From: Scytonema millei VB511283
Lineage (GTDB): Bacteria; Cyanobacteriota; Cyanobacteriia; Cyanobacteriales; Chroococcidiopsidaceae
Direction: 5' to 3'
NCBI RefSeq assembly: GCF_000817735.3
Contig: NZ_JTJC03000010.1
Location: 1-64,000 of the forward strand
Length of the DNA stretch: 64,000 bases
Below are positions 42,620 to 42,845 of this stretch, one piece after another (positions within the stretch are counted from its first letter, which is position 1; the number at the start of each line of letters is the position of its first letter). The notes below the pieces were generated by a model. The model was not told where the DNA came from. It made no database searches and worked only from the letters and a program-made list of their open reading frames with translations. The translations under genes and the position numbers were made by a program.

Positions 42620-42845
42620 CTAATCGGTTCTAGCAGGGAACAGCTGCTAGAGGTAACGGGGAAAGTTCGGTGCAAGTCCGGCGCTGTCCCGCAACTGTAA
42701 TTGGTAGTTGGTCATTGGTCATTGGTAGTTGGTAATTTTTGCTCAGAATTTCCCGACTCCCGACTCCCGATTCCCAACTCCCGCATGAGTCAGAATACCC
42801 ACCGATAAAAATTGTTTAACTCACATCCTTCGCGAGGTACGGATG
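42620..42845 (+). promoter_or_regulatory. cobalamin riboswitch controlling hupE
   Basis: The core is unmistakable: CTAGCAG/CTGCTAG hairpin, then GGGGAAAGTTCGGTGCAAGT, CCGGCGCTGTCCCGCAACTG and the B12 box GAGTCAGAATACCCACC. P1 closes with ATCGGT at 42623-42628 and ACCGAT at 42801-42806. Downstream, CATCC at 42824-42828 can pair with GGATG at 42841-42845, which contains the hupE start codon, so B12 probably blocks translation. Bases 42700-42784, the variable arm, consist of TTGGTAG/TTGGTCA and CGACTCC heptamers identical in kind to the intergenic repeats. Confidence 0.93.
42700..42784 (+). repeat. short tandem repeats inside the riboswitch variable arm
   Basis: TTGGTAG/TTGGTCA heptamers are followed by CGACTCC heptamers. 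The latter also lie at 28745-28775 and 49975-50005. The riboswitch core sequences on either side are intact. Confidence 0.8.

Follow-up and report, generated by a model that had tools for sequence, protein, structure and literature searches.

The hupE gene of Scytonema millei VB511283 is preceded by a cobalamin riboswitch that is ordinary except for its variable P6-extension arm, which was probably rebuilt from STRR-type heptamers; the arm is predicted to pair with itself and turns over while the aptamer core is spared. The riboswitch lies in the window, the stretch of 64,000 nucleotides that was analysed here; the genome of the window is called G000, and G008 and G009 are congeners from the same genus. 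A cmscan search matched RF00174 at 42608-42820 (+) with 53.9 bits (E 1.3e-10), above the curated gathering score of 31.5. The core and the B12 box are present and kept in the orthologues, and the match lies in the leader of hupE, a gene related to B12 or cobalt, with a gap of 22 nt between the two. The features of the locus, each with its basis, are as follows.

42608-42820, forward strand: cobalamin riboswitch aptamer (RF00174); cmscan
42701-42735, forward strand: 5' heptamer array, five TTGGTNN units, predicted 5' strand of the arm hairpin; sequence, Tandem Repeats Finder and predicted pairing with the 3' array
42736-42751, forward strand: linker with the predicted apical stem-loop of the arm; sequence and fold
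42752-42783, forward strand: 3' heptamer array of four CCCRAYT units and a CCCG, predicted 3' strand of the arm hairpin; sequence, Tandem Repeats Finder and fold
42788-42804, forward strand: B12 box and core return strand; sequence, the 52 nt from the box being 98% identical to each of two congeners
42824-42845, forward strand: putative P13-type hairpin CATCC/GGATG, presumed translational expression platform; sequence
42843-43511, forward strand: hupE, presumed target of the switch and coding for a putative Ni/Co transporter of the HupE/UreJ family; open reading frame and Pfam PF04955 (137 bits)

The arm comprises 87 nt (42701-42787) between CCGCAACTGTAA, which ends at 42700, and the B12 box, which starts at 42788. 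Its 5' array reads TTGGTAG, TTGGTCA, TTGGTCA, TTGGTAG and TTGGTAA, and after a linker of 16 nt the 3' array reads CCCGACT, CCCGACT, CCCGATT, CCCAACT and CCCG, followed by CATG. Tandem Repeats Finder delimits arrays of period 7 at 42697-42737 and 42751-42783. The identity of the arm with itself at a lag of 7 is 0.64 (z 7.9), a value that none of 2000 mononucleotide shuffles reached, and the shuffle test detected no significant excess at lags of 5, 6, 8 or 9. By both the lag test and Tandem Repeats Finder, these are tandem heptamers of the kind that defines STRR sequences. A sequence-only reading of this DNA had placed tandem repeats throughout the variable arm at 42700-42784, which is confirmed and correct to within a few bases, and had called the core and the B12 box intact; in agreement with this, identity to the two congeners is 96-97% over 103 nt and 98% over 52 nt. 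A further heptamer array, with the unit ACTTACG, lies at 42152-42183 (+) of the window, about 0.4 kb 5' of the riboswitch, and the same unit occurs within the hupE arm of G008.

The two arrays are predicted to be complementary and to pair into one long hairpin, a point that the earlier reading had missed. Folded alone (42694-42795), the arm reaches -30.3 kcal/mol (z -3.02), and none of 200 shuffles was as stable. In the predicted hairpin, helical blocks of 3-6 bp alternate with small internal loops at a period of 7 nt. In a partition function for the riboswitch segment, 58.1 nt of the arm pair within the arm and 1.0 nt with the rest, as compared to means of 27.8 nt self-paired and 23.0 nt paired with the core for dinucleotide-shuffled arms, none of which (0/60) showed as little core pairing. 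The suggestion that the repeats may change folding therefore finds no support in the prediction, where arm-core pairing stays at one twenty-third of the shuffled mean. The fold of the whole riboswitch has a z of only -1.73.

Comparison of the hupE riboswitch between relatives, a check proposed along with the sequence-only reading, revealed that the arm has been rewritten while the core is nearly constant. The HupE proteins of G008 and G009 are 95% and 93% identical to that of G000, and the same hupE riboswitch is present in each. Across these three congeneric genomes, the 103 nt upstream are 93-97% identical and the 52 nt from the box 98-100% identical, whereas the arms, which measure 87 nt in G000 and 88 and 142 nt in G008 and G009, are 46-74% identical. 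The outer TTGGTAGTTGGT and CTCCCGCATG are retained in the arms of both congeners; the interior contains ACTTACG heptamers in G008 and AGAGGCA and CTCCCTCAG units in G009.

A second riboswitch, located before cbiX in G000 (PF01903, 198.7 bits), has an Rfam score of 28.2 bits, which is under the cut-off. Its arm consists of GATTTTA/CCAAAAT-type units in G000 and of TTGTCAT/GATGA-type units in G008 and G009. The latter two arms are 92% identical, and the arm of G000 is 51-52% identical to those of its congeners, against a shuffled expectation of 49-50%; the 52 nt from the box remain 96-98% identical and the upstream segment 82%. By these alignments, the arm of the cbiX riboswitch has been swapped beyond recognition for another pair of heptamers, again complementary by prediction. 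In this same riboswitch of G000 (L002, G000:C7 about 86330), a heptamer array reaches the 5' edge of the aptamer, where it replaces an upstream sequence common to the two congeners (L039 and L036).

Arm halves were also exchanged between genomes to compare their predicted pairing. Native halves of the three cbiX arms pair at -20.0, -21.8 and -30.4 kcal/mol, and exchange of halves between G000 and either congener leaves only -4.8 to -9.2 kcal/mol. The hupE arms give a less sharp result: their halves continue to pair after exchange (-22.7 to -36.8 versus -28.2 to -41.0 kcal/mol for native halves), because the outer units are common to the congeners. Over the 14 heptamer arms of the survey described below, native pairing averages -26.9 and exchanged pairing -15.1, and none of 20000 random matchings reached the native total, although the native 3' half ranks first in just 5 of the 14. 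For 41 long arms the corresponding averages are -21.9 and -11.3, with the native half the best in 14 and among the top three in 28.

The repeats in the hupE arm are the ones found throughout the genome, as had been claimed from the sequence alone. In a sample of 460 kb of G000 (the window plus further stretches, riboswitches excluded), 11-mers of the arm recur at 24.3 hits/Mb; the corresponding values are 0.7 for the adjoining core and 3.4 for 11-mers drawn at random. In samples of 200 kb each from the other two genomes, 11-mers of their own hupE arms recur at 11.0 hits/Mb in G008 (random 1.6) and 16.0 in G009 (random 2.6). Arms of the second riboswitch match genome repeats weakly or not at all, with 3.4 hits/Mb in G000 (random 3.4), 5.5 in G008 and 4.2 in G009.

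Whole-genome counts of the pattern TTGGTNNTTGGTNNTTGG are 534 for G000, 379 for G008, 845 for G009 and 411 for G099, as compared to 0-88 times in the other 20 genomes; written backward, it occurs 37, 42, 63 and 3 times in those four genomes. The contrast of 534 with 37 in G000 indicates a unit dispersed in many genome copies, as is characteristic of STRR sequences. These four are the ones among the 24 genomes counted for which a riboswitch arm with the TTGGT unit was found; G099 carries the unit as its reverse complement. Similarly, the hupE riboswitch of G032 has ACTTCTG heptamers in its arm, and ACTTCTGACTTCTGACTT occurs 313 times in G032 and 0-24 times in 11 other genomes. Arm unit and genome unit thus agree for the two units counted genome-wide. 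The idea that repeats had been absorbed where the structure is variable is supported, whereas the description of these repeats as mobile is not; an arm unit shared with genomes poor in that repeat would speak against it, and for TTGGT and ACTTCTG no such case was seen in the genomes counted, but 11-mers of the second-riboswitch arm of G000 are no more frequent than random ones. A search for TTGGT arrays followed within 120 nt by a CCCRAYT- or CTCCCTCAG-type array returned 4 of 33 TTGGT arrays in the G000 samples (one of them the riboswitch), 0 of 14 in the 200-kb sample of G008 and 2 of 21 in that of G009, and no case of the arrays in any other order that was tried, counts that are too few to be used as an argument.

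The wider survey rests on 156 distinct arms extracted with a motif filter from the family of the window (19 genomes) and from its order (147 genomes, among the matches listed; 39 in full). The set of 147 genomes consists of the best matches listed, which favours short arms. The 39 genomes contributed all of their 86 matches; 37 were taken in handle order and two, G099 and G149, were added for their long matches. A further 12 loci were chosen for length and 9 regions picked by hand. With the set thus enriched for the family of the window and for long arms, the counts below are not cyanobacterial frequencies. Of loci L001-L179, 25 have no arm row: L032-L034; L045-L058, which were fetched for HupE (L045-L047 repeat riboswitches already sampled); L040, L108 and L152, which are overlaps or repeats; and L138, L160, L165, L168 and L177, for which the motif filter returned nothing. 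A scan for HupE in named genomes produced 3 loci, none with a riboswitch by the motif filter. One arm (L019) was left out of the statistics because of a run of N, and the tandem riboswitch locus L100 was kept in the lag and fold tests and excluded from the insulation test and the 41-arm exchange test.

The median arm in this collection is 24 nt (156 extracted arms, among the matches listed). For the 47 arms of at least 40 nt and free of N, with significance set at no more than 1 in 1000 mononucleotide shuffles, a lag of 7 is significant in 14, a lag of 14 in 11 and a lag of 11 in 1; every other lag from 4 to 14 is significant in none. The family of the window accounts for 11 of the 14 heptamer arms and other families for 3. 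Three genomes of the genus to which G099 belongs have hupE riboswitch arms of 98, 124 and 161 nt, with the gene identity read in G099 alone; these arms are made of GGTAAT-/ATTACC-type heptamers that are predicted to pair. A consensus fold of these three arms has a change on both sides in 1 of 64 pairs and an unfavourable covariation term, and covariation therefore adds no support in this genus. At the other extreme, the riboswitch that precedes a second hupE gene of G008, the paralogue L005, has an arm of just 19 nt.

The predicted insulation of arm from core extends to most of these arms. Thirteen of the 14 heptamer arms pair less with the core than the shuffled mean, and 6 of the 14 pair less than all 60 shuffles. 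The one clear exception is L157 (G036:C8 about 1241392), with 37.8 nt paired with its own core, more than in all 60 shuffles; the G008 hupE arm is also less insulated (13.5 nt paired with the core). Long arms without significant heptamers behave alike, with 26 of 27 below the shuffled mean (the exception is L156) and an arm-core fraction of 0.066, as compared to 0.060 for the heptamer arms. Insulation would therefore be a trait of long arms generally rather than of heptamers. Among the 42 arms of at least 45 nt, every predicted pair spans the middle in 26. Thirteen of the 14 heptamer arms fold with z below -2, and the hupE arm of G009 is no stabler than its shuffles (z 0.24).

Hairpin-prone clusters might simply arise in or insert into non-coding DNA and be tolerated in the arm, with self-pairing as an unselected by-product, a neutral account that we consider doubtful. 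Clusters elsewhere in the genome also form hairpins, and self-pairing may therefore be in part a property of the repeats: of the 328 cluster strands of G000, each taken in its most favourable frame, 72 reach at least 30 cross pairs, and counted by the better strand 66 of 164 clusters do so, as compared to 14 of 168 random places, which were given one strand where the clusters had two. The comparable insulation of long arms with and without heptamers also fits neutrality, as does the array that adjoins the G000 cbiX riboswitch upstream. Against it stands an in silico replacement, in which 328 cluster stretches, taken from either strand of the 164 clusters, were substituted for the G000 hupE arm (L001): 1 of 328 had as little core pairing, 8 had as much self-pairing, and none had both. 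Clusters matched the native arm on both counts in 0 of 328 cases for the second riboswitch of G009 (L036) as well, but in 8 of 328 for the G000 cbiX arm (L002) and 43 of 328 for the G008 hupE arm (L035), and random window DNA did so in 0, 5, 14 and 0 of 300 (L001, L002, L035 and L036). This control errs in favour of the self-pairing reading, since the frame in which the clusters were cut was arbitrary. The same holds for the windows in a comparison of fold stability, where long arms average a z of -2.76 (n=42) and G000 heptamer windows, in arbitrary frame, -1.12 (n=164). Taken together, these comparisons point, with moderate confidence, to at least a filtering of the arms for self-pairing.

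Natural length variants (87, 88 and 142 nt in one genus; 98, 124 and 161 nt in another) could also mean that the length or stability of the arm sets the speed of co-transcriptional folding or the sensitivity to ligand, such that turnover adjusts hupE expression; a passage in PMC9911696 links the organisation of a peripheral domain to ligand promiscuity in another cobalamin riboswitch. We regard such tuning as very unlikely, given that the median arm is a mere 24 nt among the matches listed. An idea that we rate as unlikely, though less so, combines length tuning with a general acceptor site at which the two strands of a heptamer hairpin change jointly, perhaps by fold-back copying, so that whole helices rather than single compensatory changes are exchanged. 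Finally, the arrays might act as DNA, in protein binding, recombination or as a slippage hot spot, with their location in an RNA irrelevant. The dispersal of the unit on both genome strands (260 forward and 274 reverse of the 534 in G000) would fit this, but the arrays of the hupE riboswitches end at the core of the aptamer, which has no repeated 11-mers, and RNase P RNA, also structured, has heptamers in 5 of 5 genomes. A function at the DNA level is accordingly the most improbable of these ideas and hardly to be expected.

The favoured reading, a riboswitch arm rebuilt from heptamers around a spared core, can be modelled as follows. The arm would accept repeats mainly as self-paired hairpins, with (TTGGTNN)5 pairing with (CCCRAYT)4 to form a single long helix. 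Such an arm would project from the junction without engaging the B12 pocket, the L5 loop or the Shine-Dalgarno hairpin, and translational OFF switching should therefore be retained. Between sister species the arm could lengthen, shorten or swap its repeat family if the new sequence pairs with itself, and selection may filter for such self-pairing. A passage in PMC4679880 cites a proposal that slippage of the polymerase is promoted by units of 7 nt. By itself, slippage leaves the joint change of both stem strands unexplained; this change would fit the arrival of a hairpin cluster that already existed elsewhere, fold-back copying, or gene conversion from one cluster to another. The copying route might be slippage plus fold-back or gene conversion.

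The expected mode of regulation can be read from the region downstream of the arm. The hairpin CATCC-TTCGCGAGGTAC-GGATG (42824-42845) has the Shine-Dalgarno-like GCGAGG in its loop, and its 3' strand overlaps the hupE start codon. By analogy to a general scheme outlined in part of PMC11260477, it would be P13, whose loop kisses L5, and the hupE riboswitch is expected to be a translational OFF switch. GCGAGG occurs within 140 nt of the box in 117 of the 156 riboswitches, a count uncorrected for chance occurrence; 80 of the 117 have a perfect flanking stem of at least 4 bp, and 108 have ATG, GTG or TTG within 15 nt. An GCGTCGCA-type motif is found in 24 further riboswitches and neither motif in 15. 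The arm hairpin was also considered as an intrinsic terminator, which is ruled out on sequence because the hairpin is followed by the B12 box and not by a U run. A gene of the cobW family (44012-45085) lies downstream of hupE. In Anabaena PCC 7120, a cobalt-responsive cobalamin riboswitch has been described with reporter evidence in PMC10878165, a text from which the words "repeat" and "heptanucleotide" are absent.

Heptamers are known from other structured RNAs. The rnpB genes of G099, G009, G000, G032 and G008 (L222-L226, in this order) each contain a heptamer stretch that none of 300 mononucleotide shuffles matched, with GTAGGGA-type units in G008 and AACTGAT in G000 and G009. STRR sequences were reportedly found in cyanobacterial RNase P RNA by Vioque in 1997, to judge from the title. 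The likeness to the present case lies in heptamers within a structured RNA; the host there is a ribozyme, and here an mRNA leader with a riboswitch that binds a ligand. Another parallel is the P6b stem of the Nostoc trnL(UAA) intron, where, according to PMC4476775, two seven-nucleotide motifs ensure correct pairing and the stem has been replaced several times by another repeat class with a similar structure. Both systems have two complementary 7-nt motifs in one peripheral stem and replacement of the whole stem, but the Nostoc case concerns a group I intron and two repeat classes, and the present one a riboswitch with several units across genera. Relative to RF00174, the core, the B12 box and the downstream hairpin with its Shine-Dalgarno-like loop are as in the family, whereas the P6 extension is predicted to form a heptamer hairpin of 87 nt, against the 24-nt median of the 156 arms of the order, among the matches listed.

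A search of the open-access literature, with most subscription papers outside its scope, found no report of heptamer repeats in a riboswitch. The hupE arm is thus a repeat capture of a known kind, as in RNase P RNA and the trnL intron, in a riboswitch host for which no earlier report was found. To the structured RNAs in which cyanobacterial heptamers are known to settle, it adds an mRNA leader that senses a ligand. Close relatives can have a helix in which neither strand is alike, with each pair predicted to be complementary and the core barely changed. Furthermore, the natural series of arms in the two genera, together with the 19-nt paralogue, provides a set for testing the role of peripheral helices in folding and ligand response.

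Several additional observations emerged. The run of N in L019 (G018:C56:19400-19645) falls within the riboswitch arm, as expected from a repetitive hairpin that breaks assembly, and such arms may therefore also hamper assembly. Two cobalamin riboswitch matches at L100/L152 (G040:C413:20142-20476) lie head to tail, 3 nt apart, and constitute a tandem riboswitch. At positions 10372-10658 (+) of the window, Rfam reports 5_ureB_sRNA with 125.6 bits, which may reflect conserved urease coding sequence and not an sRNA. The arms of L169 and L166 contain GAAACCGGGTTTCT-like palindromes, which suggests that repeats other than heptamers may occupy the arm too.
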